Position numbers and translations under genes: made by a program. From a virus, in the IMG/VR virus record IMGVR_UViG_3300031141_000005, positions 1 to 64,000 of that record: 64,000 bases of DNA. One strand, 5' to 3'. Numbering within the stretch: the first letter of the stretch is position 1; every line of letters begins with the position of its first letter. The notes under the pieces were generated by a model that was given only the letters and a program-made list of their open reading frames with translations, searched no databases and had not been told where the DNA came from. Of the stretch, positions 12,032-34,267 are shown in pieces.

Positions 12032-12032
12032 A

Positions 12033-12614: not shown

Positions 12615-12617
12615 AAG

Positions 12618-15600: not shown

Positions 15601-16919
15601 AAAAGATGCACACACCTTGGTCTGGGTATCTATCTTCTGATTCTTATATAATGCCTCACCAAGCTCTTGCAGTCCCTATAGAGTCCTCAATAAATCTAGA
15701 CTTAAGGTCTGGAGTTTATTTTGGTAAGGGGGATATTCAAGCAGGATTTCAAGACGACTACTTGTATAATGATTCTTACTCTGCTACGAACAATTCTAAG
15801 CTGTTTCTAGAGAAGCCTGAAAATTTCTTAGAAATATCTAATTATGAAAACATGGTGGCGGCATCAAACTTAAAGTTAAACGGCTCTAAGTTAGACGCTT
15901 ATACTAATTTTGACGCTAATGAGTTTTATGAGTTAGATAATGCATACGGCCCTATATATAATTTAATAAAGCTGAGAAATGAATTGTTTACAGTTCAATC
16001 TACTGGTGTTGCTAAATTATCTATAAACCCTAGAGTTGTTGTTTCTAATGACGATGTTGCTGCAATAACTATAGCAACAGGTACTGGTAGCGTAATAGAG
16101 AGGGCTGATTATGTCGACACTAGATATGGTAGTCAGCATTTCAATAACACTATAGCTACAAACACTTCAGCCTATTGGTATGACGACGCTAACTCGTCTT
16201 TATGTAAGCTTGTTTTCGGTCAGGGTGTTGCTGTTCAAGACTTAGGCTTGACTACGCAAAACTCTAGCCTTTTAGATGCATATAAAGATACAGTAATAGG
16301 TGATAATCCTTTATCTGGTGATGGAGTTTCTTTCCATTGGAATCAGAGACACGACGAAGTTGTTTGCTGTATACATAGCTCAACTAAGACTAGCATAGTT
16401 TACAGTGAACTTATGGATATTATAGTAGGGACTAGAGATGAATCTTCTTGCATGTCTGTGAACTTGTCAGGGGAAACTTACTCAGTTGGTTATAAGGTTT
16501 TTAACGGTTTAGATGACTCTAAAGTATATAAACATGATGGTGAGTCTGTGAATCAAAACGCCTTCTATGAGGTTGCTGGTTCTGCAGATATGGAGGTTAC
16601 TTTTGTAGTAAACGAAAACGTTTATACATCTAAGGTGTTTGATAAATTGGTTCTATATTTATCTGGCAATGCTAACGCAGAGAAATTCACTACCTTTGAA
16701 TTTGTAGATTCGTTAGGTAATACAATATCAAATACTGGATCTAACTTAGGTAAGATGAGAGCTGGAAAGCACATACTACCAATAAGGGACTTGACTGGAG
16801 ATCCAGCAGCTACTACGAAAATGAAAGGTAACTACTTGATAGTTACAATTAAATCTAGTGCCACTGAAGAGGTTGAACTTTTCTCAGCATTAGTTCACCA
16901 TAGAACTACAAATATATAG
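12618..16919 (+). CDS. Tail muzzle/nozzle protein candidate (1433 aa)
   Basis: This very large beta-rich protein starts with NTFTKGMQADVDANLLL and SYRKGHNVRN, the opening seen in podovirus tail-nozzle (T7 gp12-like) proteins and the crAss-like muzzle. Repeated strand-turn units such as HYHRIYWIDGNEPLRSVN and SYRYCYRLTTKGGNSSLISP suggest a beta-propeller followed by Ig-like domains. It follows the ring proteins and precedes the cargo genes, the same place as in crAss-like genomes. It would form the distal tube through which cargo and DNA leave. Confidence 0.72.
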   Translation: MAEQKKPNTFTKGMQADVDANLLLSDSYRKGHNVRNISKSDNAFTLKNVAGHQVASSMSVNTKTYTVTQANLDNTLIAASVADTYPGSLRYRVTIKDDNVVLYDYTDTTSGTNTPARLKAVVDGASALLTEADGLFITAIASASSLIILVTSTDILTLKKIEIRALTEGASSDDYYDMVIAPVDTADSHSIVGMTSFSNYICLLTISGSTNYVWKAVVGADGSFTGAKLILIGNFGFLAGRIIKIESSEENEHYHRIYWIDGNEPLRSVNLKESMTYYLSLSAGDLDVFKASPLSPAEITSVSDGGALACGSYRYCYRLTTKGGNSSLISPITNPVSVYKTAKSSQYHDIEGGGESESSGKYISFSVSIPDETYENIQVIALRTISTEGAIDANIIIDSKLYGSVFNGQHTGAETKIAIPLSQILSSSISWTTGKDLKTKDNRLFVSNLSNTSNSIDADFRAVSYNSGGVAFSTATDYNNPDLRDPNLYFSGSEGNNKYKFSDSNATHFGASSVDFADPTKNGVRVSFRLKSFTLDSKGIDDQAGSEKENSGNDYLAAQSPFYGLDSKTGDDGFYDNYKNPVFANKYTGYQRNEVYRFAILFYDLSGQATFSYPIGDIRFPKATDAYSSIDAHGLVNYIPLQCVTSSHDQVLGHYRGYIMHPRFEVNLSADLRSKISGYSIVRAEREDKDKMVLFNGLLSSVIRYTNDTENRSMRNKLGAHPVSIFHSNTSPDPIYNDMFTIDSPESIIGGVEYNNLSGDKLARSYIAAAWENDSTSFGAGAGYFCPKTFRQNADTNKGHAIRFDPKTNSQYDSWYPTAFTKLFQVLDHEGFAAEEKSIHFGTNVKSWGTIGPNNTTSGLTFKNGGRTRIDDNSYIKPVGAGGWQSETGSTNAAFSFAANDTTFINLAAGNDLLFTAPMTDNQGAKLLSNSYISIKHMAQVLRDVTESAYGGDSVSAFKFTRYISTGSYVGDVSQATTSVDVFGGDTYINMFGLKKMHTPWSGYLSSDSYIMPHQALAVPIESSINLDLRSGVYFGKGDIQAGFQDDYLYNDSYSATNNSKLFLEKPENFLEISNYENMVAASNLKLNGSKLDAYTNFDANEFYELDNAYGPIYNLIKLRNELFTVQSTGVAKLSINPRVVVSNDDVAAITIATGTGSVIERADYVDTRYGSQHFNNTIATNTSAYWYDDANSSLCKLVFGQGVAVQDLGLTTQNSSLLDAYKDTVIGDNPLSGDGVSFHWNQRHDEVVCCIHSSTKTSIVYSELMDIIVGTRDESSCMSVNLSGETYSVGYKVFNGLDDSKVYKHDGESVNQNAFYEVAGSADMEVTFVVNENVYTSKVFDKLVLYLSGNANAEKFTTFEFVDSLGNTISNTGSNLGKMRAGKHILPIRDLTGDPAATTKMKGNYLIVTIKSSATEEVELFSALVHHRTTNI

Positions 16920-16920
16920 T

Positions 16921-18180
16921 ATGTTAAACTTTGAACAAGAAAAGAGGTCTGAGCTGCAGAAGTTCTATGGCAACAGACAGATGGCTAAGTATGCTGGAGG
17001 TGGAGTCACTGACGCTATAGCTGGAAGTTCTGCTAGGCAAGATAGAAGAGCTGCAAGGCAAGACATGAGGGCTAACGAAACTTCTGGAGAGAAAGCAACT
17101 AGAAAGGGTAATCAAAACGCCATCATGGGTGCTGGATTAGGTATAGCATCTACAGCCGTAACTGAATTAGATAAGACTCCTGACAAATATGACGGAGCTG
17201 ATGTTGCTGGTTCTGCTTTAAAATACGCATCTATGGGCGCTGCTCTAGGTCCTTGGGGAGCTTTAGCAGGTGCGGCAGTTGGTGCTGGAGTTGGTTTAGT
17301 AAAGAAGGGTCAAGCTGAAAAGGCAGCAGAACAAGCTGATAGACTTGAATCTACAGAGGAAGAATTAGAATCTACATCTATAGCTAAAGGAGAACGTTCT
17401 GCTATGTTTGCAGAAGGTGGTGTGGTAGATCCATACAAACCTAACAGCACAATATCTCAAGCAAAAGAACCTTGGTATGGCGATAACGATTTTCTTGATG
17501 GAGTTTCCAATAAAATGAATAGTTATATAGCTAATGGCGAAAGGACTTTAGATAACACTCAAGTAGGGTTAACTGCTTTAGGCATGGCTCCTGTTTATGG
17601 AGCTGTAGCTGATGGGGTTAATACTGCAATATCTGCAGGTAGAGCAGGATATGCTTATGCTACTGGAGATACTGAAGGAGTTAAAGAGCATTCAACTAAT
17701 GCAGTCGCTAATGCTGCAATGATGATTCCTGTTGAAGGTCAAGGGTTGGCGTTAGCCAAGTTAGGACTTTCTGGTGCTAAATATGCTAAACATGTTAAAG
17801 GAGCAACTAAAATACTCCAAGCTGTTGATACCGTGAAGGACGGTGTGAATGTGGCTATGGCTACAGATACTGTTGTAAGTGGTGCTGGCGTAGCTAGTCA
17901 ATTAGCAGCCAATACATCATCTACTAAAAACCCTTATAGCTTTGTATCTGGAAATAAGTTTAAGAATGGTGGCGAAACTAAAGGTAGTTATAGTCACTCT
18001 AAAAATCCTTTGACCGTTGTGGATAAGCAAGGTAAGCCTGTAGGTATGGAACTTACAGGAGGTGAAGGAGTGTTTGACAAACCTGCAATGAATCGCATAA
18101 AGAAAATGGCTATGACTGGTGATTACGCTAAGTTAGGTCAGTACGTTGAAAAAGAAATGAATACTTGGAAACATAAATAG
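16921..18180 (+). CDS. Ejected cargo protein with glycine zippers (419 aa)
   Basis: Two Gly/Ala-zipper segments (about residues 68-80 and 101-127) and a third hydrophobic stretch near 260-285 could insert into host membranes. Short GG-containing loops (YAGGGV, FAEGGVV, FKNGGE) recur. The C-terminal 60 residues hold VGMELTGGEGVFDKPAMNRI and LGQYVEKEM, a tail found on many internal or ejection proteins of phages. It begins one base after the muzzle gene. I infer a cargo protein that helps genome or polymerase passage across the envelope. Confidence 0.6.
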   Translation: MLNFEQEKRSELQKFYGNRQMAKYAGGGVTDAIAGSSARQDRRAARQDMRANETSGEKATRKGNQNAIMGAGLGIASTAVTELDKTPDKYDGADVAGSALKYASMGAALGPWGALAGAAVGAGVGLVKKGQAEKAAEQADRLESTEEELESTSIAKGERSAMFAEGGVVDPYKPNSTISQAKEPWYGDNDFLDGVSNKMNSYIANGERTLDNTQVGLTALGMAPVYGAVADGVNTAISAGRAGYAYATGDTEGVKEHSTNAVANAAMMIPVEGQGLALAKLGLSGAKYAKHVKGATKILQAVDTVKDGVNVAMATDTVVSGAGVASQLAANTSSTKNPYSFVSGNKFKNGGETKGSYSHSKNPLTVVDKQGKPVGMELTGGEGVFDKPAMNRIKKMAMTGDYAKLGQYVEKEMNTWKHK

Positions 18181-18182
18181 AC

Positions 18183-20303
18183 ATGGCTGTAACTAAACCA
18201 AAAGGGGTAACCCACGGAACTTTTAACAAAAACCCTGGTAACATAAAGGGTTATCATAAAGGTGGGTCTAAAACAGACTTCACTAAATGGCTTGACAAAC
18301 AAGGTATAAAATACAGCCAAGGAAGTCAGGCTAGTGATGGTGGCTATTTTATACATTTCGAGAGCGATGAAGACGGATTAAAGGCTGCTGATAACTTCTG
18401 GAATGTAACTAAGACTTGGGCTGCTTATGAGAATAAGGATGGTTCATCTATGACTGTAGAAGATGCTTTATCTAAGTATTCTAATGGAGGTTATGATAAA
18501 AAGTTTCTAAAAGGATTAGAAGCTAAGGGTATAGATATGACAGCTAGTTTAGATTCGTTAAGCGATGACGATTTAGCTATGATGTCTCACACTCAAATGC
18601 AGACAGAGGATCCTAATCAATATGCTGCTTTACAAACTCAAGGACTTATAAGTAAGTCTGGTGTTTCTTCGTATAAGACTAATCCTCCTGTGGGAGTGTC
18701 TGCTGCAAGCAAGAATACTAATGTTCCTACTCAAGCACAGTCAAACGCTTCTTCTACAGGTCAATCTCCAAGAAGCGCAGCTCAAGAAGAGGGGGCTCGC
18801 CTTGTTAAACTAAAGAATGACTTTGAGACCTCTAAAACTATAAAAACAGTTCCTTCTGAAGATAAAAAGAAAGAAATATTACTAGCTGTAACGAAGATAG
18901 GGAAAGAGCTAAATGACGAAATGAATGAATCATCATCTGTAATGTTTGATGATGACGCATTAAGAGGAGAGTTCTTAAAAAGAATATCTACAGAACTTGG
19001 ATTAGATGATTTAGATCAATCGGACATAGAAGCTTTAGGTGAGGCTCGTGGTATTATTGAGCATGTTACTAATATCGCAAATGAGGAGTTAGGGCAAACG
19101 ATTGGAGGTAAGAAAGGTTTATTTGAGATTGAGTCTCCAATAGAGAATGTGTTTGAAGATTCTGCTAATCTGTTAGATACAAATTTAGGAATGCTTGGTA
19201 TTGCTCCAGAAGGTAGAGCAAGTCAGGTTTTACTTGAATCGTATAATGAAGATTTTTATGATAATGGTGAAAGGTTAGAAAAAGGTGGGGCAGATAGAAC
19301 TATTGATGACTTAGTAAATCAAGATGAAGATTTATTAAATTTAAAGGTTTCTGAAGGGTTAACATCAGAAGAGGCTATACTAAAGATTGAAGAGCAAAGG
19401 AAAAAGCAAAAAGAAGAATCTGAATATGTAGATAAAGTTAAAGAAGGTTCGGCAACCCAAGAAGAACAAGACGCAGCTGTTACTGGTCACGAAACTAGAT
19501 TAGCTGATGCTATATCTGAATATACCCCCGAAGAGGTTGTTGTAGAAGATACTATCGAAGAAGACGCAGCTACTGAATTAAAAGACAAGAGAACTCGTCA
19601 GATGGCGATGGCAGAAAAAGCTCTTACAGGGTTGAAGGCTGCTGCTGGTTTAACTTCATTATCTAAGGCGTTACAAGAACCTGATGTAAAGACTCCACAG
19701 GTTTCTAACTTAATGTTGGAAGCTTTAGGTAAGCAGAAGAAATTATCTACAATGGGATTGAATGCTGCAGAGAAAGCTAGTGCAATGCAAGGGATTAACG
19801 AAGCTTATTCTGGTGCTATCAAGAATGTTCTTGGCGCTTCAGGAGGGCAGAGAGGTTCTTTCTTAGCTAATCAAGGTGTAGCTGACGCTAACAGAGTTAA
19901 AGGTTTGTTACAGTTATCAGCTCAGGATGCTGCAATTAGAAGACAAAACGTAGGTCAATACAATCAATTAGCTTCTTCGGTTGGTCAAATGCAGTTATCT
20001 GCAGATATGTCTGCTGAACAAATGAAGCAACAAGCTATAGCACAGAATAAGCAAATGCTTGGAGGTATTGGTACTAACTTATTATCTGACGCTATTAGTG
20101 ATGCAACTTATTATCTTAATCCTAACAGAGAACACATGGACGAGATGATGAAGCAATATATGGAATCCACTACAGGTAATAATGGTTATACGCCACCTAC
20201 AGGGACTGATGTCATAGGAATGAATGACCCGTCAAAAACGGATAAAGAAAGAAAAGTAGAGGCAGATGCCTTGGCTGCTAAAGCTAAAGCTAACGGACAA
20301 TAA
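18183..20303 (+). CDS. Ejected cargo protein with N-terminal NPxNI domain (706 aa)
   Basis: Residues about 10-120 carry NPGNIKGYHKGG and then GGYFIHFESDEDGLKAADNFW, ending with a YSNGGY loop. This matches the 'NPxNIR ... F.vF.s...G..A' pattern of small virion proteins with lysozyme-like relations. I cannot point to a catalytic Glu, so muralytic activity is not shown. The remainder is long, helical and acidic, and residues about 480-640 resemble a coiled coil. Located between two other cargo genes before the giant polymerase. Confidence 0.6.
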   Translation: MAVTKPKGVTHGTFNKNPGNIKGYHKGGSKTDFTKWLDKQGIKYSQGSQASDGGYFIHFESDEDGLKAADNFWNVTKTWAAYENKDGSSMTVEDALSKYSNGGYDKKFLKGLEAKGIDMTASLDSLSDDDLAMMSHTQMQTEDPNQYAALQTQGLISKSGVSSYKTNPPVGVSAASKNTNVPTQAQSNASSTGQSPRSAAQEEGARLVKLKNDFETSKTIKTVPSEDKKKEILLAVTKIGKELNDEMNESSSVMFDDDALRGEFLKRISTELGLDDLDQSDIEALGEARGIIEHVTNIANEELGQTIGGKKGLFEIESPIENVFEDSANLLDTNLGMLGIAPEGRASQVLLESYNEDFYDNGERLEKGGADRTIDDLVNQDEDLLNLKVSEGLTSEEAILKIEEQRKKQKEESEYVDKVKEGSATQEEQDAAVTGHETRLADAISEYTPEEVVVEDTIEEDAATELKDKRTRQMAMAEKALTGLKAAAGLTSLSKALQEPDVKTPQVSNLMLEALGKQKKLSTMGLNAAEKASAMQGINEAYSGAIKNVLGASGGQRGSFLANQGVADANRVKGLLQLSAQDAAIRRQNVGQYNQLASSVGQMQLSADMSAEQMKQQAIAQNKQMLGGIGTNLLSDAISDATYYLNPNREHMDEMMKQYMESTTGNNGYTPPTGTDVIGMNDPSKTDKERKVEADALAAKAKANGQ

Positions 20304-20314
20304 AAGACAACGAC

Positions 20315-22045
20315 ATGGATTACAGTAAAGCTAATAATGTCCTATCTGGTTGGGTAGGTTCAGGAGACAGAAGAGCAAAAGCACAAGCACAACTTGGGGA
20401 AGTTATGCAACTACATCAAGCTCAGCAACAACTCAATGCAGAGAAGCAGCAGAGTGAAGAACAAATGGAGAACTATCTTGACTCTATAAAGAGTAGAGCT
20501 AGCGAACTTGCTGTAAGGAATGAGGATAGGGAAGTTATACAAGGTTTGTATGATGACCAGAAAAGTATATTTCTCTCTGAATTAGAGAAACACGGAAACG
20601 ATCCATCTAGGTTTATGAACTCAGGTGGGCGTAGAGTATTAAAAGACTTCGCTTCTAGCGTGTTACAGTCTGATGAAGCTGGAAGAATCTCTGGTAACAC
20701 TAAGGCTATACAAGAGTATTTTGATACGAGTGAAAGAGAAGGCGGTAAGTTTGCTAAACTTATCCCACACTCTACAAGAAGAGAGTTTCAGAACTTCATG
20801 GATGGAGACGCTGATGTGTTTAGAATGAAGCAGATAGTAGAGCTTAAAACTCCAGACAATGATGAGTATGAATTCTCTAGCAATAAAGCCGAGGCTTATT
20901 ACTTTGCTGGAGATAACGCTATGCTTGCTGAGCAGAATTATATAATAGAATATGATCTACCAGTTGACGCTAAAGTTAGTAAAGAAGTTCTTATTGATTA
21001 CATAGGTCAATACACAGGGACTGTTAATCCTCATTCTGCCGCACCTTCTTCAGATGGAAGTGGTTCTATGGTTGGTAAGCAATCTAAATCTTGGAGTGCT
21101 AGAATGGGTAATCAAATGAGTCACATGAATAGCGATGGAGGAGTTAGTACTGCCGTTATAGGATCAGGAAGTGAGTCTTATGCTAGAAGTTTGAGTGATT
21201 TTGATTCATTCAGTGTTAACTCTAACTCTGGATCGGCTCCAGCCAATACAGATGTGTTTGGTCATAGAGTGGATGAGGGTAGTGAGTTTATGTACGCTAA
21301 AGCAATCTTCGGAGATGAAATTGAAGAAGGCGATAACATAGAAGGTAGACAATGGAATGGTAACTGGTTTAATGAAGACGGTACTTCGTTTGATCACGGT
21401 GCTGGAGATGCTCCTGACTTAACTATTGGTGGTGTTTGGCTTGGTTATAAAGTTAAAGAAAACGGAAAAACTAGATTAGTTAGAGCTGAAGATTTAGAAG
21501 GAGAACCTAAGAACGCTGAAGTTGTTCTTATGCAGGAATTTGAAGATGACGGAATCTTTACTAGTGATTACTACTACAGAGAGATAGCTACAAAAAGAAG
21601 TGCAGCTGAAGGAATTAAACTAGGTCAACTTAAGAATGTTGATGGAAATTTAGGTAGACATACTAAAGAAGCTCAAGGGAATATACCTGGAGCTCAAAAC
21701 ACTCCAGCTAATAATGAATTAAGCAGTTTCCTTAATATATCTAGCGCTCCATTAAGTCAAGAGATGAACAAAATGGAACTACCTGCTGGTAGTTTGAAGG
21801 CTCGTAGTATTTTGCTATCTTTATCAAGAATTCAAAATGCTGAAGTAGGAACGTTGTCTGAGTTTATAAATACAAGGAACACTCCAATACTTCAACAAGC
21901 TTTAATGTCGGGTAACACTAACATGTTCTTCGATAGGTATACAGAGATCATGATAGAGCAAGGTAAGACGAAAGAAGAAGCTAGTAAAGAAGCAACATTA
22001 ATTTTTAGAGAAAGTGAAAACATTCTCTCAACACTTAATAGATAG
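20315..22045 (+). CDS. Cargo/ejection protein candidate (576 aa)
   Basis: I do not recognise a domain. Residues 25-75 are Gln/Glu-rich coiled coil, the middle is mixed with a Ser/Gly-rich stretch (about 225-310), and the C-terminus is helical, with a KTKEEASKEATLIFRE helix. It lies two bases before the giant RNA polymerase gene and behind two other cargo candidates, so it is probably packaged with the polymerase. No signal peptide. Confidence 0.55.
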   Translation: MDYSKANNVLSGWVGSGDRRAKAQAQLGEVMQLHQAQQQLNAEKQQSEEQMENYLDSIKSRASELAVRNEDREVIQGLYDDQKSIFLSELEKHGNDPSRFMNSGGRRVLKDFASSVLQSDEAGRISGNTKAIQEYFDTSEREGGKFAKLIPHSTRREFQNFMDGDADVFRMKQIVELKTPDNDEYEFSSNKAEAYYFAGDNAMLAEQNYIIEYDLPVDAKVSKEVLIDYIGQYTGTVNPHSAAPSSDGSGSMVGKQSKSWSARMGNQMSHMNSDGGVSTAVIGSGSESYARSLSDFDSFSVNSNSGSAPANTDVFGHRVDEGSEFMYAKAIFGDEIEEGDNIEGRQWNGNWFNEDGTSFDHGAGDAPDLTIGGVWLGYKVKENGKTRLVRAEDLEGEPKNAEVVLMQEFEDDGIFTSDYYYREIATKRSAAEGIKLGQLKNVDGNLGRHTKEAQGNIPGAQNTPANNELSSFLNISSAPLSQEMNKMELPAGSLKARSILLSLSRIQNAEVGTLSEFINTRNTPILQQALMSGNTNMFFDRYTEIMIEQGKTKEEASKEATLIFRESENILSTLNR

Positions 22046-22047
22046 TT

Positions 22048-25000
22048 ATGTCAAACGGTTTAGGTAACGGAGTAAATGCACCAGGAGAAGATATTGAAAA
22101 CTACGATTCTTCTTTAGATAGTTCAGCAAGTCAACCAGATATACAATCTAACTTAGAGGTTCCTCAACAGAGGAGCTCTTTTAGTTTAGCGAACATCAAC
22201 CAACAACAAGCTCCAATGGAGCAGATGGATGCTTGGGGTGGTGCTGTAGATTTAGCTGAACAACAACAAAACCTTCCTGATATACCAGAAGTTGGTACTC
22301 CAGGTATAGATTACGACATGGGTCATGTTGAGACTATAGGTAGGAGTGTTATGGCTGGGTTTGGAGATATGTTTAATAGTATGGGTGATATGGTTGACTT
22401 CTTAAGTTTTACCCCATCATCTATAGTTTCTAAGCATGTTCTTGGTATAGATACTAATAAGCCTATCTCTGATGCGTTCCATAATTTTGGTGACTACCTA
22501 GACTCTTATGGTGATACCGTTCCTGGATTAAAAGACATGAGCGAGATTACTTGGGATGATATGTCTGATCCTAAGTTTTGGGAGACTGGAGTTGCTCGTA
22601 TGCTTCCGTTCGCTTTATCATTAATGATCCCTTCTACTTTGGCTGCCAAAGGAGCGCAAGCTGCTATGGGTAGTATGAACTTCCTTAAATCATCTGCGGC
22701 TATTGCTAAGGGTGCATCTTCTGTTGGTATTAGATTATCTCAAGCTGCTGCTACAGGATTAATTAAGAAAGGTATTGCTACTATCGCTGCAGGTTCTACG
22801 GCAAACATGCTTGAGGGTGCTGCGCTAGCAGGTGGAGCTATGAATCAAGCCATAGAAGAAGGTGTAGATCCTAGACTAGCTCATGCAGTTGGTCGTAGAG
22901 TCTTTGTAGATAACTTAGCTTCAATGGGTGCTGATATTGTTCAGTATGGATTGTTTACAGGTCAAGCAAAGATTGGTTCTGCTATCATGAAGACCGTTCC
23001 TGGAGCAGCAAAGACTGCTGGTTTGAAGGCTATGAAAGCTGCTGGTATTGGTCCTGTAGTTAAGCAAGCTTTTAAAGCTATAGGTATGGGTGCTGCCAAT
23101 GGTATAACTGATGGTGTTGTTGAACAATTCCAAGAGGTTTATCAAGATTGGTCTGTGAACAAGAATATAGCTGAAGCTAAAGGAGAAGACTTCCCTACTT
23201 ACATGGAGTTCTTTATGGCTGACGAACAGAGACCTACAAGGATTATGTCGTTCGCTACTAGTTTACTTATGTCTGGTGGTAGTAACTTCATGCAGACAGC
23301 TACAGAGAACAAGAGAAAACAAAATACAACTAATCAAGAAAACGCAGATGTACATGATCTTATAGGGGTCTTTTCAGATAAGGTAGATCAAGAAAGAACG
23401 TACAAAGTAAATAAGAAAGTATTTAAAGGTCTCGATAAGAATGGTGTTGCTATCACAGAGGATGAGGTTATTGAAATCTCTGGTGAGGATATGCAAAATG
23501 AGATTCAAGATTCTGCCGCTAGAAAGTTAGCAATGCAAGCTGTAACCAACGGACAAAAAGATTTGGTTATGGAGGCTTTAGCTATGGAGTTAGAGGATGG
23601 TAATATAACTCAAGATAGATACGATTCTTACGTTAGTACTATAGCTGAGGTTGAATCTCAGATGTCAAAATACCCTGATGGTTCATTTAATAGAATGGAG
23701 AAGGCTAATTTAGTTACTGCTGTATGGGCAAAGACTTCTGTAGATAGATCACTTAAGATAGGTGAGGACGCTAAGAATGCTGAGATTGAGAAGATAAATC
23801 TTAATAATATTTTAAGCGAGGAAAATAAGAAGTCTCAGATTGATGCTTTAAATGAGTCGTATAATGAAGGGGCTAAATCAAAACAAGCCGCAGCTGATAT
23901 AATGAAGGATACGGTTAATAGTATCTATGAGTTTAGTAAGAAAAGGGTTGCTGCTGAGAAGTTTAATAAAACCGACAGACCAAAACTTAATAAACTTGCT
24001 GAAAAGGTAAACAACAACGAAGAGTTAACAAAAGAAGAGAACGAATACGTTGCTAGTAATAAAGACTTTAGTGGTCATATTAAGAAAGAGTCTTCTAGAT
24101 TAAGAAGATCAGAAGCTAACAGTAAAGCTCCGAAAGGATTTGCTTATAGTGAAACTCTTGAAGATGGTACTCTTATATATGAAGAGGCTGTAGCGAAAGG
24201 AGAGCCTGGGAAGGTGTTTAAGTTTAAGGCAGACAAGACTACCGAAATAATAAACAACGACCTAGGAGATGCTTTAAATAATATAGATAAAGACATTAAG
24301 GATGGTGATGTTGTTGGTGACGCTGTTGGTGATAAAGCAGACACTAAAGACTCTAATGATAAAGACACCGACAAGGTTGATGATAAAGATAAAGTCGATG
24401 GCGACGCTAATGATAAAGCTGATGATAAGGTTGACGACAAAGACCCTACTCCTGACAAACCAAAAGTTAACGCAACGCCTAGAGCTGCCGAGGTAGCCGA
24501 GGAGGAGGGTGTTGATTTATCTAAGGTTGTTGGTACTGGGACTGGTGGAAAGATACGTGTTGGTGATGTTAGGGCTTATAAATTAAAGAACCCTAACGGT
24601 CAATCAAAGCTATTCATGAGACTTGATAGTGCTAAAGTTATGGCTGGATTAGCTCGTGACGCTGCTAAGAGAATCGCAGGGGATACTGCTTCTGATTTAT
24701 TTGACATAGCGACAAAGTACTTAAATAACAGAGAGCTAAGAAGGTCTCATACTTTAGACTCAAACTCTCACATGGTTCTGTCTGACTATTACAGACGTAA
24801 GGTTGTAGATGGAGTTGTGTCTATGGGCTTCATGCCTGAGATATTTACTGCTGCTGGGGTAAGAGCTGCAGGTATGGCATCTGGTTTAGGTATATTCTTA
24901 AACACGGAACTATACAACGAGGAAGCTGTATTCCACGAGAACTTCCACATATTTAGAATGCTTTATGGACACCGTCCTGAAGTAATGGAGATGATGAAAA

Positions 25001-28000
25001 ACATCATAGACCAGCCTATATATGAAGAAATAAAACTTAAGTATTCTAACTTATTGTTAGTACAGTCTAGCGGTGATGCTCTAAATCTTACCCTAGCGTT
25101 AAAACACGCTTCTAGATTAAATAAGGGTGTTATTACAAACATTAGAGACTTCGTAGCAAAGAACGGAGGTAGCATGGAGTCTGAGCAGACTATGAAAGAT
25201 TTCTTAGCGTATGCTATGGAACAAGTAGAAGCTATCGGATATAAGGCATTAGAATCTAAAGATCAAACAGGAATTCAAGATGAAGCTCTTACTCACTTAG
25301 CTGGTAAGTATGGTGCCCTTAATCCTGATCTGTTCTTTAGCGACAAGAAGAAAGCCGACACCCATAAGGAAACTTTTGGTAAGTGGTTAGGATTTATTAA
25401 AGAGAACTCTACAATAGAAGAGTCTGAAGCTTTGTTTGAAGAAGCTACTGAAGGTCTTTATAAGAAGACTAATGATTTCTCTTTCTTTGAGAAATTCTCT
25501 AAGGTAAAAGAAATTATAGAAAATAATCAAGCTGATTACTCTGGGCTTAGTAAAAACTCCCCATCTCAGTCTAAGTATATGACTGCCGAAAGAAAGGCAA
25601 TCAACGATAGTATAAGAGTTAGTTTAGATAGTAAGCTTAACGTAGCTTACGAAATGGCTGTAGCTTTCCATGATGAAATACTTGGAGAGGCTAAGAAATC
25701 TTCTGAGGATTTAGGAACTAAAGAACTTATAAAGGCTGTAAAAGAAAGAAGAATCTTTCAAGACCAAACTCAAGAGGCATTTATTTCATTCGCTAGAGCC
25801 GTCCTTTCAGAGATAGCTAAAGATCCTGCTCACGGAAAGAACTCTGAGAAGTACGATAAAACATTCAAGATATTGAATGCTAACAAGCACGGAATAATGA
25901 ACACCATAAAGACTATGTTCTTGTCTGGTTTAAATGTTCAAGAACAGAAAGCTTTAAAGGGTGAGGAATCAGCAGCAAGTGAAGATGTAGAATCTGAAGA
26001 CGGAGCATTCGCTGCCGTTATAGATGGTGGTAGTTTAAGATTATCTAGTAAGTTTGGGGGTATTATAAAGAACTTCCTTACTTCAGGTAGAGCTGTAAAC
26101 GGAGAACTAGGAGCTACTAAGAACAACGTATTGAAGCAGATCATAATGGACATAAATTCTGTGTCTAACCCTGAAGAAATGCAAGCATTAGTAGAGGCTA
26201 GAATTGGTTTATTGAAAGGAAACCCAGATAGCTTAACATTCAACGAAGCTATAGCTGCGGAGTTCTATACATACCTAGATGAGACGCAAGATATAGTTCC
26301 AGGAGAATCTATTAAGAGTGCTTATCATGAGCTTTCTGGATTTAAGATAGATAAGCCTTTCGTGTTTGTTGTAGGTGGGTCTAAAGACTTACTATCTAAC
26401 ACTGACAGGAACTACCAAAAGAGAGCTCTAGACTTTATTAAGTTTGATAAGACTGACTTGATTGGAATAACTGGAGGTAAGCCTCTGTCTTTGAGTGCTA
26501 TAAGGGCTCAGGTAGCAAAGAAAATTCATGTATTAAAAAGGTTTGAGAATGCTGACGTGTCTCAGTTCTCTGTAGTTGATGCTTTCAATAAGAGGATAGA
26601 ATTCTCTGCAGCCTTATACGGTTTGATGTCTAAAGAAAATGTAACCAAAAGCGATGTAGCTGCGTTTATTAAAAGACACATACTACCTGAAGGTACTGGT
26701 GTTGATGTGTCTTTAAATGAGATTGAAGCTCTTATGATTTTTGATGAGGTTTCTGGACAGAGTTTAAGCATTGGAGCTTACTTTAGTCAAGAGCGTATCA
26801 GTGAAATGTTCTACGACTCTTTATCTTTAAGGACTAGTAGGAATAAGGATAACAAAGTGGAGTTTGGTTATGAGGCAGCTCAAGATATTATTATAGGAGA
26901 GGTTATTAATCCTATGAAAAAGATCACAGGAGACCTTGATAAAAGCGTTGTTAGAGAATTAATAAAAAGATGGAAAGCTTCTCACGATTCAACAGAATCA
27001 GTTAGAGGTTCTATAAGTGTGTATAAAACATCACACGAAAACAAGGGTAGTATTATAGAAGGGGTAGCTGGTAGTATGGATAACATGCAAGGTGTTAATG
27101 ACATCTTTAAAGCTGTTGTTACTTCTTACATAGTTTCATCTCAACAGAACCCTGCTGGACAGGTTAGAATGCCTGAAGGCGATCAAGTGTCTGTACTCGT
27201 AAAGAAGTCGGCTCTTGATTACAATGTAGAGTCGTTAGAGAAATTAAAGAAGGATGACCTTCCAAGATTTAAAAAGCTTTATGGAACTAACCGATATGCC
27301 CTTAAAATGGCGGAAGGTAATTGGAAGCTTAATTATAACATACTTGCTGGATTCGATGGAGAGAATTCTATAGATTCAAAGAACATGACAGGAACTCAGG
27401 TAATGTATTCTGACCTTAGAATGATTCTTTCAGCTTTAGAAACTGGTTCAGATTCTTACAAGCAAAATATAGGAGATCACTCTGATAAAACAAGAAGATA
27501 TTACGCTGATGTAGACGCTCTAGGAGCTAGTATTTCTTTTAATGAGTTCTTAGGAAAGACAGACCATAACGATGTTACTGTCGAATCATTAGAGGAATAT
27601 GTTAAGGATTACGCTCCAGGTCTTTATAAAGAACTTGAAGCTATAAAATCTAAGCAAGTTGCGGAGATGAAGTCTCTAATCAACAAACATAATGATGGTG
27701 TTGATAATTTCGATCTTCATTTAGTTATGTCCCCTAGCGTTATCAAGAGTCTTAGAGATTCTGGGAAGGATATAAAGACTACAGACAACGAAGGAGCTGT
27801 AGAAGAAGGTGAAGGTGAATTAGATTTAGCTGGAGATGAAGTACTTAAAGGTTCTTTCAGTGTAGAATCTATGATGGAAGGCGCTGAAAGAACGCATGAA
27901 AAGTTAGGTTCTAATATGGCTGATGTTGTTGTTGCTGGTCTTAATTATGCAGTAAACAAGTATTACCTACAAGACCTTACGGGTGTAGTATCTCAAGACG

Positions 28001-31000
28001 CTTCATTTACTATGAAGAATAAGAGAGCTACATTACTGATAGCACCTCAAGTGTCTGCATTTCCAGAACACAGAATGGATGTTATTATGTTTAACGATGT
28101 AAAGTTACTAACTCTAGATGGTCTTTCTACTATAAAAACTATAGACGGAACAGTTGTAGAGGTTACTGCTGATTTACTAGATTCAGCTTCTTACGTTACG
28201 CAAGATATGGCTGACGAGATAACTAACGCATACGGGAATACCGTAGACGTAACGGGATCGTTTAAGTTTGTTGGTGCAGGGCAGAACACAGACAATGCTG
28301 CTATATCATCTTCATTCGGATCTGAACGAAGTAAGTTCTACTTTAAAGGTCATACTGTAGTATTAGATGAATCATCTATAGGAACTCCACTAGAAGGAGT
28401 GTACAAAGCCTTACTAGCAAGAGAAAGGTTATTTAAATCTAAAGGAATTAAAGCTAAGGTTATAGCCTATGCTGATTCTGGTGTTAAGAAAGGTCACATT
28501 AAGGGAATCAACTCTAAGAGTCTTGCTGAATGGGATGCCATGAAGGACGATGACGTTGCTATCAATGAGTTTCAAGATAGCTGGTCTTACGACTTGAAGA
28601 AAGATACTTACGGATATGATGGTAAATACTTCGGTGTTCAAAATGAACTAGATAAGAATGCAACTAGTGCGACTGTAGCTAAACAAGCTGTATCCGCAAC
28701 TAATATATTCGCTGATCATGAGAATACTGAACTTGCTGCGATGTCTCAAGACTTCTTGTCTTTATATGCTCAAGCCTTAGACCAACAATATCAAGAAGGT
28801 TCTGGAGGTAAGACGATAGAAGAGTCTGGTTTAGAGAGCGCTAGTTCGGGATCTACATTCCCTACCATGACTAGAGCTATGAATGAATTAGCGACCTCGC
28901 TTCCATTCGTTACAGATTCTTTAAGTAAGACCGCTACAGCTAAAGTTAAGAAAGACGCTCACAGACTTAGAACTACAGGTTCTTTATCTCTTCAAATATC
29001 AGATGCCTTATATGGCTATGAGTTTGATGGAGATAATGTAATAGAGACTGACAAATCTTTAAAACCTATTAGAATAGAGAACGGTAAAGTACTTCCTGCT
29101 GAGGTTGCTATATCTAGTCACATGGCTAGTATGCTTGGCGTTACAGAGAAGGAGCTTGAAGGAGGTAAAGAAGTTTTCTTCTTTGCTACTAGAATACCAG
29201 CTTCATCTGTAGGTTCTACTATATTATTAAAGGTTGCTAGAATATCCCCAACTCAAGGTAACACTATAGCTATAAACGCTAAGATGTCTGCCATAATGGG
29301 GGCTGATTTAGATGGTGATATGCTTCACCTTAACGCTTGGACTAAGAAGCCTAAAGCTGGTTCTGTTGATGCAATCAAGAACAAGATGCTTGACAAGCTT
29401 AAGCAAATGCACGAACACCCAGAGGTGTTTAAGACATTAATTAAAGAGCTTGAATTTAAGACAGTAACTAAAGCCACCAACCTAGCCTTATATGGTAACG
29501 AGAAAGGTTCTACTGCAGTATACAATGACTTCAATGTATTTGATACTGCTGAGATGTACGAACAAACTAAGGGTAACGCTCCTATGATTGGTCTTATAGC
29601 TTCCACTTCTAATCAATTCAACTACCTAGCTCAAGGAAGTCCTTCTGTTAATTATGGAGGATTACCTTTAGTGTTAGTTAAAGGAAGAGAAGAGAAATCT
29701 GAAAGATATGATAGGTTAGATTCTAAACTATCCGAAGACGGGGGAGGTACTTACTACGCTTACGCTAACTACTTGAACCTTATCTTAGATGATGGGAAGT
29801 ATGGTAACAGAGCTAAGTTTGGATTCAATAAAGGTAGTGGTGCTTCTTTTGGTTTAATGATAAAGATGGGTATTCATCCAAAGGATATTGCATTATTAAT
29901 GACGAAAGGTAAGTTAGGTGAGTTACTTAGCATGGATAAGTTACAAGACTACGCTAGAGAGCAACTTGGTGTAGAGAAAAGCTTAGCTGGTCATATAAAA
30001 ACTAACTTCCTAAGTAAAGGAATAGATATAGAGGCTATTATAAAAGGAGACTTAGAGTCTGCTATAGCTTTAGCTGTTGTGTTAAAGAGCATATCTAACG
30101 ATATGTATAGTCTAGGTTCTTATGTTGGGCTTGATAGTAATCTACCTGAGTCTCTAGTAGAGGTTAAGGAAAGAATAAGAGCAGGTAAGAAAGCTTTAGC
30201 TAACCAACCTGAGATAGCTCAGAATGCATTCACAAACAACCCACTAATACTTAGTAAGGTTAAATTCTTATCTGACTATGCGGTGAAGTTAGCGTCTGAA
30301 GATGTTACAATATCTAACGGCTATAGTGATACTGTAGGTGAGTACATGTTACCTGTAGATGAGAATGACTTTGATTCTGTTCAGTTTACTGACGCAGCTA
30401 AATTACTTAAAGCCCTTAACTTATCTAGGGTTGCCGCAGAAATGCCTATCAGTATTCGTGATATGTTATTTGAGTCAGCGGTATCTGGAGTTTCTAAGAC
30501 AGCTAATAACGTAGAGTCTAAGAACTTCCTATCTATATTAAATAAACTAGACAATCAAGATTCTTATTCTGGTGTTACTCAGTTAATAGCTAACTACATC
30601 AAGAATAACGAAGACTTTGATAATAACTTATTCATACAACATTTAAGTATGAGAAACTCTACCAGGTTCTTTACAGGAGGTACTGATATTATTCAGGATT
30701 CGTCTGTTGTAGAGTTCGGAATGGATAGAGAGATGTTGTTTGAACTACAAGAGGTTGAACAGATAGAAGCTTTAGGTAAGGACTTTGAGAAGTTGCCTTC
30801 ATGGCTTAAGGATTGGTTTATAGCTAATGACTTTATAGTTTCTGGTTGGGGTTCTAACGAGAAGCAGTCACTACTACCTTACATGGATAGTGCTTCTATA
30901 TCGAAAGTGAATGGATACTTTAAGTCTGCGTTCTCAAACGGTAAAGATTTCATAGAACAAACAAACGAAAAAACATCTAATGGCGCTGGAGTTTTAAGCA

Positions 31001-34000
31001 TCAATGAATTGATTGGTGTTGATAGTTCTTCAGGTCATGAGGAAGCTTCTTTCTCTTTAGCTAAGTTAGTTTACGCTGCTCTTCACGGAGCTAAAGGTCT
31101 TAACGCTCACGAGCAAACTCACGAAAACGTTAATTCATTTTCTACTAGCTCTCAAATGGAAAACGATACTACTCTTGTTTTTGATGAGCAATTTAGAGAG
31201 TTAGGTATGTTGTCTGTAGTTTCTAAACTATCTGACCAACATTCAGAAAACTCTAGAGATGATGTTAAGTACTTAGCTATATACGGAAACGGTATAGACA
31301 TGACTCAAGGTCTTAGAGTTACATTAAGTAAAGACGCTTACCTTAACGAGAAGCTTCCTTCTGGAGTTTCTATAGATTCTTTTGATGATGAAGGTAGAGC
31401 TAAATGGGATGAGAAGTACTCTAACTACTTAAGGTCTTTGGATATAGTCAACGAGAAGTTGGATCACTTAAATGAAGCTAACATAGAAGACCACGACTAC
31501 ACAATGAACAGGTCTGCTTCTGATAAGAGGTTTGATTACGTATCTAATTTATTCGCCAACATACAGAATGAATTATCTTATGAGACTGTAGGATTAACTA
31601 AAGAACACTTAGATGAGTTAGCTACCACTCCACTTAGACGATATGTAGAATACAACTATGGATTACATATATCTAATAAGCAAATCAAGGATTGGGAGTT
31701 AGATCAAGGTAAGAGTTTCGTAGAAGAGATTACAATTAAAGGATTAAATAAAGATATATCTACATTGGATTTATGGATGTCTCCAGGGGATTACGGTAAG
31801 AACAAACCAACCATGGCTTACATTAATAAAGAAATGAAGATGGAGCATATGGACTTCACTAGAAACCTTCACCTTGTAACTAAGGAAATGAATAAGAGGT
31901 TAGATGCTTTATATAAAAGTAAAGCTACTGAGACTGGTTTCTTAGGAACTAAAGCTGGTCGTATATTTAATCAGTATTTCGCAGTAGGTAATAGAAAGGT
32001 GTCTGAGATACTATACGAAAACCTATTCGTAAGCGAGCACGCAACAAGAAGAAAGGTAGATACGAAAACGAACAAAGTTACTTATACAGATGCTAGTTCA
32101 TTACGACTTAATCCTTTATTCTTTAAGAGCGCTAGCATCGTAGGAGATCAAAGTGTTATAGATTCAGATTCTCAAGCGTTTAAAGACTTATCCGTAGCAG
32201 AACAAGAGTACTTAAAGATGTACGTTAAGTACACTTCATTCTATAGAAACTTAATACACGCTAAGGGATTACTTAAAGGTGGCTCTGATAGAGGTACTAG
32301 TTATATTCCAGCATCTACTTCATCTAAGTTTGAAACGATGAGTAGAAGAGGTTTATTTGGATTGTACTACCAAATGCACAGAGGAGACGAAACTCTTTAT
32401 GATGTAGTAATTGAGGCTGTAAATCCTTTAACTGGAGACCTTGAGAAGTTAGATTACTTTAGTTGGAAAGCTTTATATATGCACTCTCCTGAAGATGCTT
32501 TATTTACTACAGACTCAGACAACTTAAGAGTTGACTTAGGTCACGGTAATACATTGTCTGGAGCTCAAAGAATTAAAGCGTTCAGAGATATTACAGCTAA
32601 GGCTAAGAAGTTAATGACTAAAGGTAAGGATGATGGTGGTAACACTGTTAGTATATCTTCTCCTATTAATGATGTTCTAGGTAATGAGGAATTTGTAAAC
32701 AGATTTACATCTCACAGATCATCAAAGGCTGGGTACTTAGCGACTCACAACCTTCACCAGTCACTTAGGTCTTACATACAAACGTTCATGTTCCAACATG
32801 GTAACGCTTACTTAGATGTTAAAGCGAATAAAATTAAGAAGCTTTCTTGGAATATAGATGATAATAAAGATGAGTTTGGTGTTGAGTCTATGACTCTTCA
32901 GGACGCTACTAAAAACAAGTTTATATTTAAAGGATTTGATAGTAAGAACCTTATGGTTGATGCTGCTATGTCTCAACTTAGGTTGAGTGGTAGCGAGAAT
33001 GCTTTAAAGTATATGGACAAAGTTGTTAAGGGTGGTTTAATTAATAAGCAGAGAGGTTTGTCTTTTAGTGAGTCAAAGAACGAAGCTAGTATAATTAAGT
33101 TCTTTACTAACTGGACTATGTATATAGCTTTAGGTTTCAACTTCCCAGCAGCTGTTGGTAACGTCTTGATAGGTAAGTACAATACTTACAGAGCTCAAGG
33201 TGGTGCTGGAGTTATTACTGGAGAGAAAAGATACTTAGGTATAGGTTCTAACGGTATGTTCGACAAGAGCATTATGAAGAAATCTAGATTGATGATTGAA
33301 GAATTTGGTATCTTAACTTACCGAGCTGAAGAGATTGCTGAAGGTACTAGTGGTTCTGCCATTGATGCTTTAATTTTCTCTCCTATGGTACTTGCAGAGA
33401 ACTGGATTCAACAAGCAGCATTCTTAGGCTCTTTAACTCAAGAGCAGTGGGATAGCTATGAGGTTCACGAAGGTGAGCTTATGTTTAAGGGAGACATCAA
33501 GAAAGAAGATGGTACTCTTAAATATCCTGACGCAAAGAGAGAGTCTCAGCTTTCTAAGATTGAAATAGCAAAACTAGAGAGAGATGTAATCAACCTTCAA
33601 GGTAGAGGTTACTCAGAGACTGATCAGAGATTCATTCAGATATATGCTCTTAGTAATTCATTCATGCAATTCAAGAGGTGGTTCCCTACGTTCTTAGCTG
33701 ATAGATTTAAATCAGAACACATAGATGACTTAGGTACTATGAGAATAGGTTCAGTGAAAGCTGCTTCTGACTTTATTTCAGAGATGAGAGCTAATGATAT
33801 TCCTGTAACGGAATGGAGAGAGCACCTTAAAGATAAGCCTAAACACCTTAAAGATGGTGTTAGTAGATTATGGAGAGGTACTAAAGGTATCGCTATGCTG
33901 TCTATGATTCTATTAGCTATCTCTCATAATAGAGACGATGATGCGCCAGAGGATGAGACTTTAAAATTAATGGAGAAACTACTTGGTGATATGCTATTAG

Positions 34001-34236
34001 TCTTTAACGTTCCTAAGCTTACTTACATGGCTAACATACCAGCCTTAAGTACTGCAGATAACTTAGCTAAGACAGTGTATCATCTTATCGCTCAAACTGA
34101 GTACAAACGTAAAAGTAAGTACGGAGATAAGGGAGATAAGAGATTTGTTTCTAACTTCGCTCAACTACTACCTTCTTCATCTAGATTCGTTCTAGAGGAG
34201 AATGGTAAGAAGAGTAAGAAAAGATCTATACGATAA
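22048..34236 (+). CDS. Giant single-chain virion RNA polymerase with fused N-terminal domains (4062 aa)
   Basis: The catalytic call rests on MGADLDGDMLHL, with Asp2420, Asp2422 and Asp2424 matching the metal-binding NADFDGD loop of beta-prime-type polymerases. It is preceded by TRIPASSVGS and GNTIAINAK, as in crAss-like virion polymerases such as phi14:2 gp66. A beta-like barrel may lie near DSGVKKG (Lys2147/2148). The N-terminus adds Gln-rich and Ala/Gly-rich membrane-active segments (about 150-410). A Lys/Asp linker (about 745-808) leads to a peripheral-subunit-binding-like domain (810-845) and HENFH (963-967). C-terminal segments include LGFNFPAAVGNVLIGKYN and a hydrophobic helix. By homology it would be injected to transcribe early genes. 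Confidence 0.85.
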   Translation: MSNGLGNGVNAPGEDIENYDSSLDSSASQPDIQSNLEVPQQRSSFSLANINQQQAPMEQMDAWGGAVDLAEQQQNLPDIPEVGTPGIDYDMGHVETIGRSVMAGFGDMFNSMGDMVDFLSFTPSSIVSKHVLGIDTNKPISDAFHNFGDYLDSYGDTVPGLKDMSEITWDDMSDPKFWETGVARMLPFALSLMIPSTLAAKGAQAAMGSMNFLKSSAAIAKGASSVGIRLSQAAATGLIKKGIATIAAGSTANMLEGAALAGGAMNQAIEEGVDPRLAHAVGRRVFVDNLASMGADIVQYGLFTGQAKIGSAIMKTVPGAAKTAGLKAMKAAGIGPVVKQAFKAIGMGAANGITDGVVEQFQEVYQDWSVNKNIAEAKGEDFPTYMEFFMADEQRPTRIMSFATSLLMSGGSNFMQTATENKRKQNTTNQENADVHDLIGVFSDKVDQERTYKVNKKVFKGLDKNGVAITEDEVIEISGEDMQNEIQDSAARKLAMQAVTNGQKDLVMEALAMELEDGNITQDRYDSYVSTIAEVESQMSKYPDGSFNRMEKANLVTAVWAKTSVDRSLKIGEDAKNAEIEKINLNNILSEENKKSQIDALNESYNEGAKSKQAAADIMKDTVNSIYEFSKKRVAAEKFNKTDRPKLNKLAEKVNNNEELTKEENEYVASNKDFSGHIKKESSRLRRSEANSKAPKGFAYSETLEDGTLIYEEAVAKGEPGKVFKFKADKTTEIINNDLGDALNNIDKDIKDGDVVGDAVGDKADTKDSNDKDTDKVDDKDKVDGDANDKADDKVDDKDPTPDKPKVNATPRAAEVAEEEGVDLSKVVGTGTGGKIRVGDVRAYKLKNPNGQSKLFMRLDSAKVMAGLARDAAKRIAGDTASDLFDIATKYLNNRELRRSHTLDSNSHMVLSDYYRRKVVDGVVSMGFMPEIFTAAGVRAAGMASGLGIFLNTELYNEEAVFHENFHIFRMLYGHRPEVMEMMKNIIDQPIYEEIKLKYSNLLLVQSSGDALNLTLALKHASRLNKGVITNIRDFVAKNGGSMESEQTMKDFLAYAMEQVEAIGYKALESKDQTGIQDEALTHLAGKYGALNPDLFFSDKKKADTHKETFGKWLGFIKENSTIEESEALFEEATEGLYKKTNDFSFFEKFSKVKEIIENNQADYSGLSKNSPSQSKYMTAERKAINDSIRVSLDSKLNVAYEMAVAFHDEILGEAKKSSEDLGTKELIKAVKERRIFQDQTQEAFISFARAVLSEIAKDPAHGKNSEKYDKTFKILNANKHGIMNTIKTMFLSGLNVQEQKALKGEESAASEDVESEDGAFAAVIDGGSLRLSSKFGGIIKNFLTSGRAVNGELGATKNNVLKQIIMDINSVSNPEEMQALVEARIGLLKGNPDSLTFNEAIAAEFYTYLDETQDIVPGESIKSAYHELSGFKIDKPFVFVVGGSKDLLSNTDRNYQKRALDFIKFDKTDLIGITGGKPLSLSAIRAQVAKKIHVLKRFENADVSQFSVVDAFNKRIEFSAALYGLMSKENVTKSDVAAFIKRHILPEGTGVDVSLNEIEALMIFDEVSGQSLSIGAYFSQERISEMFYDSLSLRTSRNKDNKVEFGYEAAQDIIIGEVINPMKKITGDLDKSVVRELIKRWKASHDSTESVRGSISVYKTSHENKGSIIEGVAGSMDNMQGVNDIFKAVVTSYIVSSQQNPAGQVRMPEGDQVSVLVKKSALDYNVESLEKLKKDDLPRFKKLYGTNRYALKMAEGNWKLNYNILAGFDGENSIDSKNMTGTQVMYSDLRMILSALETGSDSYKQNIGDHSDKTRRYYADVDALGASISFNEFLGKTDHNDVTVESLEEYVKDYAPGLYKELEAIKSKQVAEMKSLINKHNDGVDNFDLHLVMSPSVIKSLRDSGKDIKTTDNEGAVEEGEGELDLAGDEVLKGSFSVESMMEGAERTHEKLGSNMADVVVAGLNYAVNKYYLQDLTGVVSQDASFTMKNKRATLLIAPQVSAFPEHRMDVIMFNDVKLLTLDGLSTIKTIDGTVVEVTADLLDSASYVTQDMADEITNAYGNTVDVTGSFKFVGAGQNTDNAAISSSFGSERSKFYFKGHTVVLDESSIGTPLEGVYKALLARERLFKSKGIKAKVIAYADSGVKKGHIKGINSKSLAEWDAMKDDDVAINEFQDSWSYDLKKDTYGYDGKYFGVQNELDKNATSATVAKQAVSATNIFADHENTELAAMSQDFLSLYAQALDQQYQEGSGGKTIEESGLESASSGSTFPTMTRAMNELATSLPFVTDSLSKTATAKVKKDAHRLRTTGSLSLQISDALYGYEFDGDNVIETDKSLKPIRIENGKVLPAEVAISSHMASMLGVTEKELEGGKEVFFFATRIPASSVGSTILLKVARISPTQGNTIAINAKMSAIMGADLDGDMLHLNAWTKKPKAGSVDAIKNKMLDKLKQMHEHPEVFKTLIKELEFKTVTKATNLALYGNEKGSTAVYNDFNVFDTAEMYEQTKGNAPMIGLIASTSNQFNYLAQGSPSVNYGGLPLVLVKGREEKSERYDRLDSKLSEDGGGTYYAYANYLNLILDDGKYGNRAKFGFNKGSGASFGLMIKMGIHPKDIALLMTKGKLGELLSMDKLQDYAREQLGVEKSLAGHIKTNFLSKGIDIEAIIKGDLESAIALAVVLKSISNDMYSLGSYVGLDSNLPESLVEVKERIRAGKKALANQPEIAQNAFTNNPLILSKVKFLSDYAVKLASEDVTISNGYSDTVGEYMLPVDENDFDSVQFTDAAKLLKALNLSRVAAEMPISIRDMLFESAVSGVSKTANNVESKNFLSILNKLDNQDSYSGVTQLIANYIKNNEDFDNNLFIQHLSMRNSTRFFTGGTDIIQDSSVVEFGMDREMLFELQEVEQIEALGKDFEKLPSWLKDWFIANDFIVSGWGSNEKQSLLPYMDSASISKVNGYFKSAFSNGKDFIEQTNEKTSNGAGVLSINELIGVDSSSGHEEASFSLAKLVYAALHGAKGLNAHEQTHENVNSFSTSSQMENDTTLVFDEQFRELGMLSVVSKLSDQHSENSRDDVKYLAIYGNGIDMTQGLRVTLSKDAYLNEKLPSGVSIDSFDDEGRAKWDEKYSNYLRSLDIVNEKLDHLNEANIEDHDYTMNRSASDKRFDYVSNLFANIQNELSYETVGLTKEHLDELATTPLRRYVEYNYGLHISNKQIKDWELDQGKSFVEEITIKGLNKDISTLDLWMSPGDYGKNKPTMAYINKEMKMEHMDFTRNLHLVTKEMNKRLDALYKSKATETGFLGTKAGRIFNQYFAVGNRKVSEILYENLFVSEHATRRKVDTKTNKVTYTDASSLRLNPLFFKSASIVGDQSVIDSDSQAFKDLSVAEQEYLKMYVKYTSFYRNLIHAKGLLKGGSDRGTSYIPASTSSKFETMSRRGLFGLYYQMHRGDETLYDVVIEAVNPLTGDLEKLDYFSWKALYMHSPEDALFTTDSDNLRVDLGHGNTLSGAQRIKAFRDITAKAKKLMTKGKDDGGNTVSISSPINDVLGNEEFVNRFTSHRSSKAGYLATHNLHQSLRSYIQTFMFQHGNAYLDVKANKIKKLSWNIDDNKDEFGVESMTLQDATKNKFIFKGFDSKNLMVDAAMSQLRLSGSENALKYMDKVVKGGLINKQRGLSFSESKNEASIIKFFTNWTMYIALGFNFPAAVGNVLIGKYNTYRAQGGAGVITGEKRYLGIGSNGMFDKSIMKKSRLMIEEFGILTYRAEEIAEGTSGSAIDALIFSPMVLAENWIQQAAFLGSLTQEQWDSYEVHEGELMFKGDIKKEDGTLKYPDAKRESQLSKIEIAKLERDVINLQGRGYSETDQRFIQIYALSNSFMQFKRWFPTFLADRFKSEHIDDLGTMRIGSVKAASDFISEMRANDIPVTEWREHLKDKPKHLKDGVSRLWRGTKGIAMLSMILLAISHNRDDDAPEDETLKLMEKLLGDMLLVFNVPKLTYMANIPALSTADNLAKTVYHLIAQTEYKRKSKYGDKGDKRFVSNFAQLLPSSSRFVLEENGKKSKKRSIR

Positions 34237-34242
34237 TTAATG

Positions 34243-34250: not shown

Positions 34251-34267
34251 TATTAAACTAAACTAAG

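Follow-up and report, generated by a model that had tools for sequence, protein, structure and literature searches.

The window, a 64,000-nucleotide stretch of a 65,964-base IMG/VR virus record, carries a crAss-like set of structural genes, with the terminase at 2430, the portal at 4238, the Crass_capsid protein at 7595 and the muzzle protein at 12618. Markers of the order Crassvirales are clearly recognized among them (Crass_capsid, 1e-27; crAss_MUZ, 2e-124; PHROG portal, 6e-113; terminase, 1e-85). Relatives of the portal with 65–75% identity are common in IMG/VR. Among named phages, even the nearest reach no more than about 32% in the portal, which indicates a lineage without a close relative in GenBank. 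A tblastn search with the N-terminal, core and C-terminal regions of the giant open reading frame (ORF) described below returned zero matches in 50,697 phage records, placing the lineage outside the GenBank phages searched, and a scan of genome contigs found no relative. The giant ORF lies downstream of the muzzle and cargo genes, and the corresponding gene likewise follows the muzzle gene in phi14:2, crAss001, cr118_1 and cr1_1. The features of the locus are as follows.

12618..16919, plus strand: muzzle protein, a marker of the Crassvirales structural block (crAss_MUZ, E 2e-124)
16921..22045, plus strand: three cysteine-free genes (419, 706 and 576 aa) in the muzzle-to-polymerase interval, at the Crassvirales cargo C1/C2 position
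22048..34236, plus strand: single ORF of 4062 aa, interpreted as a fused virion RNA polymerase with gp67-gp66-gp65-type modules in one chain
22333..23148, plus strand: N-terminal module, residues about 96–367, a homolog of the N-terminal region of phi14:2 gp67 and crAss001 gp47
24466..24573, plus strand: E3_binding (peripheral subunit-binding) domain, residues 807–842 (PF02817, 1.4e-8)
24934..24948, plus strand: HENFH (HExxH), putative zincin motif, residues 963–967, invariant and aligned with HEAFH of the Suoliviridae giants
27226..30444, plus strand: polymerase core, residues about 1727–2799, the model of which aligns with gp66 residues 553–1832
28474..28494, plus strand: DSGVKKG, residues 2143–2149, β-like active-site lysine motif, aligned with ESAVKVG, K2147 and K2148 invariant
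28969..29454, plus strand: β′-type double-psi β-barrel with metal loop, residues 2308–2469, from a structural match
29305..29319, plus strand: DLDGD metal-binding triad, residues 2420–2424, from profile alignment and family conservation
33088..33984, plus strand: C-terminal module, residues 3681–3979, a homolog of the C-terminal region of phi14:2 gp65 and crAss001 gp49

The three genes between the muzzle gene and the giant ORF presumably encode ejection proteins; their scores against C1/C2 are weak and only weakly hint at homology. Further along the window, genes for an amidoligase (PF12224) and a glutamine amidotransferase are adjacent on the minus strand (59297–61831) and possibly form a peptide-modifying pair. 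A DUF932 protein adjoins the DnaB-type helicase in the replication block (57629–58522).

The giant ORF starts with ATG and contains zero internal stops over its 4062 codons, in agreement with the single uninterrupted frame reported in the first-pass annotation. A comparison with its nearest relative (L096) yields 345, 211 and 869 differences at codon positions 1, 2 and 3, respectively, and third-position (synonymous) change prevails in each 500-codon block, which indicates coding selection over the entire frame and its translation as one protein. Pattern scans and record searches provided 11 further copies of the gene, giving a family of 12 with the window protein. Their identity to the window protein is 33–38%, with one exception at 88%, and the complete copies comprise 4048–4701 codons, in one frame in every case. 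The neighbourhood is conserved as well: a gene of about 580 aa precedes the giant ORF in the relatives, and a gene of about 1085–1187 aa follows it at equal spacing wherever both flanks are covered. Across the family, the N- and C-terminal modules are conserved no less than the core, with the N-terminal module being 49–55% identical.

The motifs ATRIPASSVGS, GNTIAINAK and MGADLDGDMLHL are all present in the ORF, with the aspartates at D2420, D2422 and D2424. The pattern D-x-D-G-D, expected 0.12 times from composition, is by itself only mildly unlikely, and the security of the assignment comes from conservation: all three aspartates are invariant in every relative long enough to reach the site, which bears out the GADLDGD triad initially proposed. 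In a profile alignment with gp66 of the Cellulophaga phage phi14:2, GADLDGD falls on GSDFDID. One continuous alignment with the giant proteins of the Suoliviridae places DLDGD on DFDID and DSGVKKG on ESAVKVG, and K2147 and K2148 are invariant in 12/12 family members. The ORF, its motifs and their positions hold as first described.

When the whole protein was compared by sequence with PHROGs, Pfam and the PDB, no polymerase was found, and profile searches with four regions against the PDB returned nothing meaningful. The fold of the core was modelled for residues 1700–2890 from an alignment of 12 rows, with only moderate confidence (mean pLDDT 53). A Foldseek search of all PDB entries with this model ranked phi14:2 gp66 (PDB code 6VR4) first (E 4e-8, probability 1.00), with all others far behind. 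Alignment of the model onto 6VR4 using VIA-align yielded Z = 14.5 over 674 residues; the poor r.m.s.d. of 12.3 Å is as expected for a loose multi-domain model. The best structural match outside the crAss-like phages reached Z = 8.3, and the AR9 non-virion polymerase was among the matches. Segment 2308–2469 independently matches the large subunits of AR9, Pol I–V and bacterial polymerases at about 3 Å, with Z values of about 8 to the AR9, Pol IV and Pol II large subunits over 105–125 residues. A T7-like single-subunit polymerase, the type to which the catalytic domain of the coliphage N4 virion polymerase belongs, did not appear among the Pfam, PHROG, PDB-sequence or fold matches.

These results bear out the first proposal of a Crassvirales-type double-psi-barrel polymerase, since gp66 is the best PDB match and profile alignment superimposes both motifs. 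Of the two barrels expected around these motifs, the β′ barrel is recovered, whereas the β-like barrel is modelled at low confidence. The isolated β-like region (residues 1955–2300) gave a poor model and structure searches with it produced no informative match; its mean pLDDT is 53 in both models, and the whole-core alignment to gp66 spans both barrel regions. The proposed β-like site thus stands at the level of sequence, through its alignment and invariant lysines, while the model of the isolated fragment is uninformative; on the same sequence grounds, a second barrel is predicted here. The DLDGD strings in the upstream 576-aa gene, found in four relatives, were considered as a second active site and rejected, as their position is not conserved.

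The regions on either side of the core, initially described as unexplained, are largely accounted for by profile alignments as gp67-like and gp65-like modules. The alignments, made with shallow profiles, gave scores of 61.6 for the N-terminal part with gp67, 68.9 for the core with gp66 and 102.4 (E 5.5e-10) for the C-terminal part with gp65. Reversed-target controls scored 25.5, 24.6 and 22.5 for gp67, gp66 and gp65, respectively, and the best of the shuffled controls (12 column shuffles per target) reached 34.2 overall, for the gp67 target, and 28.4 for the gp65 target. The gp67 match covers only the N-terminal part of that protein and the gp65 match only its last third; residues about 370–920 and 2700–3680 have no assigned homolog. 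Since the three profiles match in gene order, the window ORF is a gp67-gp66-gp65 fusion, with the gp67- and gp65-type modules flanking the core. Three matches to the Suoliviridae giants are also collinear: one in the N-terminal module, a weak one (35.9) over the HExxH stretch and one in the core.

In 8/8 other Crassvirales examined (phi14:2, crAss001, cr111_1, cr118_1, cr1_1, cr113_1, cr272_1 and cr130_1), this block is divided between two or three genes. The complete fusion in a compact, cysteine-free chain is the specific novelty of the window relative to these eight. With all three in one chain, gp67, gp66 and gp65 have a fixed order from N- to C-terminus, which is informative about how the separate proteins of other members may fit together. 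A compact, natural single-ORF version is also a candidate for expressing the whole complex from one gene. A 4287-aa ORF of Flavobacterium phage FpV4 (L130:33880-46743), annotated as ‘putative structural protein’, contains DYDID at 3116, HEVIH at 4065 and one cysteine. It is probably the polymerase of that phage, with the block split differently; it showed no match to the window family and is not alignable with it.

The length of the protein had been given as about 1.9 times that of gp66, and the ratio (4062/2180 = 1.86) is borne out. The accompanying suggestion that it would be one of the longest polymerases of its class is wrong. Crassvirales ORFs at the equivalent locus span 4328–6386 codons, and single ORFs with the same motif include those of cr118_1 (4946), cr1_1 (4551), cr130_1 (5801 codons) and cr272_1 (6386 codons), the last two of which require stop-codon reassignment. 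A review puts crAss polymerases at up to ~6000 aa (PMC10136315), and gp96 of phage P23-45 is a polymerase fusion of 5002 residues (PMC10770324). The window protein looks long against gp66 alone because the phi14:2 block is spread over three neighbouring ORFs, of which gp66 is one. When the block is summed, the 4062 aa of the window are the shortest measured, compared to 5212 for cr111_1, 5398 for phi14:2, 5709 for cr113_1, 6102 for crAss001, 6558 for cr1_1, 6613 for cr118_1, 7875 for cr130_1 and 8667 for cr272_1. A length of 4062 residues is ordinary for this virus group; what is notable is the fusion in one short chain.

Two further elements lie between the N-terminal module and the core. The E3_binding domain is present in 8/12 family members and in 0/6 of the Crassvirales block proteins scanned; it is of the 2-oxoacid dehydrogenase type, here within a phage virion polymerase. 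The HENFH motif is invariant across the family (n = 12) wherever the sequence reaches, as is E1079, a candidate third ligand. HEAFH of the Suoliviridae giants likewise lies upstream of the polymerase, and the spacing from HExxH to DxDxD is 1457 residues here and 1444–1619 in five of these giants. Searches with the HExxH region gave no Pfam match and no PDB sequence match, and the putative zincin assignment is based on the motif and a third ligand yet to be placed. A second HExxH-like string, HEQTH near residue 3000, is absent from the nearest relative and was rejected.

Relatives carry additional inserts. One has an AlkB-like 2OG-Fe(II) oxygenase (L099:12568-13464; PF13532, E 2e-13) directly after the polymerase core, and another a DUF7831 domain within the C-terminal half of its chain (L097:13814-14338). 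A 244-aa insert inside the core, at window residue about 2538, is shared by L101 (positions 11951–12697) and L105, has no Pfam match and is missing from L097, which is otherwise 89% identical; it resembles an ADP-ribosyltransferase by eye only.

The giant ORF encodes 0 cysteines in 4062 residues, where about 27 would be expected if cysteine were as frequent as in the other window genes (Poisson probability 3e-12). The upstream 419-, 706- and 576-aa genes also encode none; the muzzle, portal and terminase proteins contain 9, 4 and 8, respectively. In total, five consecutive genes (16921–34798, 5939 aa), the giant ORF included, are free of cysteine, compared to a mean of 6.5 per 1000 elsewhere in the phage proteome, and the relatives of the giant ORF have 0–1 cysteines each. 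Depletion extends to phi14:2 gp65–gp68, to crAss001 gp46, gp47, gp49 and gp50, and to cargo-position genes of other members. Most Crassvirales cargo genes show it, but it is not universal, being absent from the polymerase genes of cr272_1 and cr130_1. N4-type virion polymerases have been reported to be cysteine-free, with hindrance of injection by disulfides as the proposed reason (PMC3915230), and crAss001 cargo proteins must partly unfold at constrictions under 50 Å (PMC10172136). Our literature search found no statement on cysteine depletion in crAss-like phages, which is no proof of novelty. The absence of cysteine supports, without proving, injection of the window protein. Such a cargo block, nearly devoid of cysteine, points to a simple sequence signature by which phage proteins threaded into the host might be recognized. 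The signature was known for N4 polymerases and is seen here in an unrelated polymerase fold.

We conclude that the ORF most likely encodes the DNA-dependent RNA polymerase that a marine crAss-like phage packages in its virion. Along the chain, a gp67-like module at the N-terminus is followed by a predicted zincin domain, a gp66-like polymerase for which two barrels are predicted and, at the C-terminus, a gp65-like module; for this statement as a whole we estimate a probability of about 0.87. In phi14:2, transcription of early genes by the virion polymerase has been demonstrated experimentally (summarised in PMC7886860, PMC10136315), and gp65, gp66 and gp67 are virion proteins by mass spectrometry according to the record annotation. 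Likewise, crAss001 gp47, gp49 and gp50 have been detected in virions by mass spectrometry (PMC10172136). Observed directly are the uninterrupted frame and how it is conserved, three homologous modules in collinear order, the β′ barrel and the absence of cysteine. We infer a life cycle in which the chain would be synthesized late, packaged near the portal alongside the cysteine-free proteins encoded just upstream, and threaded, at least partly unfolded, through the portal, tail barrel and muzzle. It would then refold in the host and transcribe early genes from the incoming DNA without the host polymerase. The absence of cysteine would prevent disulfide trapping during passage through the periplasm, an idea put forward earlier for the N4 polymerase.

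The chain might instead be a polyprotein that is processed once made or inside the virion, perhaps by the HExxH domain it carries, into gp67-, gp66- and gp65-like pieces, so that the working polymerase would not be one 4062-residue chain. The motif lies between the gp67-like and gp66-like modules and does not vary within the family; in phi14:2, crAss001 and cr111_1, each module is a protein of its own. We nevertheless consider such cleavage unlikely: no cleavage site is evident in the chain, phi14:2 gp67 and gp66 have no HExxH, the long gp67-gp66-type fusions of the Suoliviridae have no known processing step, and the zincin call itself depends on a motif together with a third ligand of uncertain position. 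A broader proposal, in which the marine lineage carries the whole Crassvirales transcription cargo as one self-contained, injected chain with swappable accessory domains (E3-binding, AlkB-like dioxygenase, DUF7831 and the unnamed insert, distributed across different relatives) and in which self-processing by the internal zincin may occur, is likewise unlikely.

A non-virion polymerase synthesized in the infected cell, of the kind represented by P23-45 gp64 and the AR9 non-virion polymerase, is very improbable given that the gene lies within the late structural block beside the muzzle gene, that the fused gp67- and gp65-like parts are virion proteins in relatives (PMC10172136) and that the chain is cysteine-free; it has to be taken into account, however, that a double-psi-barrel fold alone is not proof of packaging and that the AR9 non-virion enzyme appears among the structural matches. 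The N- and C-terminal modules are conserved at least as well as the core, as might be seen in a structural or ejection protein whose polymerase module has lost its activity. Every relative, even at 33% overall identity, retains the triad, the lysine motif and the surrounding residues, which makes this reading very improbable.

Compared to known systems, the virion polymerase reading places the window protein closest to phi14:2 (Crassvirales, Steigviridae), in which gene 66 is flanked by genes 67 and 65, after the muzzle gene, with homologous modules collinear in the two phages. Both share the DxDxD motif, and a core of the two-barrel type is predicted for the window protein as well. In contrast to the window, phi14:2 distributes the block over three genes (1797 + 2180 + 1421 aa), has no HExxH in gp67 or gp66 and a different one in gp65, and is without the E3-binding domain. 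The Suoliviridae giants (cr118_1, cr1_1, cr113_1 with 4328 codons, cr130_1 and cr272_1) resemble the window in combining gp67-like, HExxH and gp66-like parts in one ORF with the same motif spacing. They differ in that the gp65-like protein is encoded by a separate downstream gene (1381–2281 aa), in that several need stop-codon reassignment and in being much longer overall; the cr118_1 giant also has a C-terminal helicase. Outside the Crassvirales, gp96 of Thermus phage P23-45 is a two-barrel virion polymerase that, like the window protein, joins the enzyme to large non-polymerase regions in a single chain; in gp96 these include a metallopeptidase (PMC10770324). It belongs to a long-tailed phage, however, has its polymerase at the N-terminus, is fused to the tail tape measure and lies outside the Crassvirales block. 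The virion RNA polymerase of coliphage N4 (Schitoviridae) is also giant (about 3500 aa) and cysteine-free, and it is injected, as proposed for the window protein (PMC3915230, PMC12633501). Its catalytic fold is unrelated and not a double-psi barrel, the two enzymes being alike in their presumed use.
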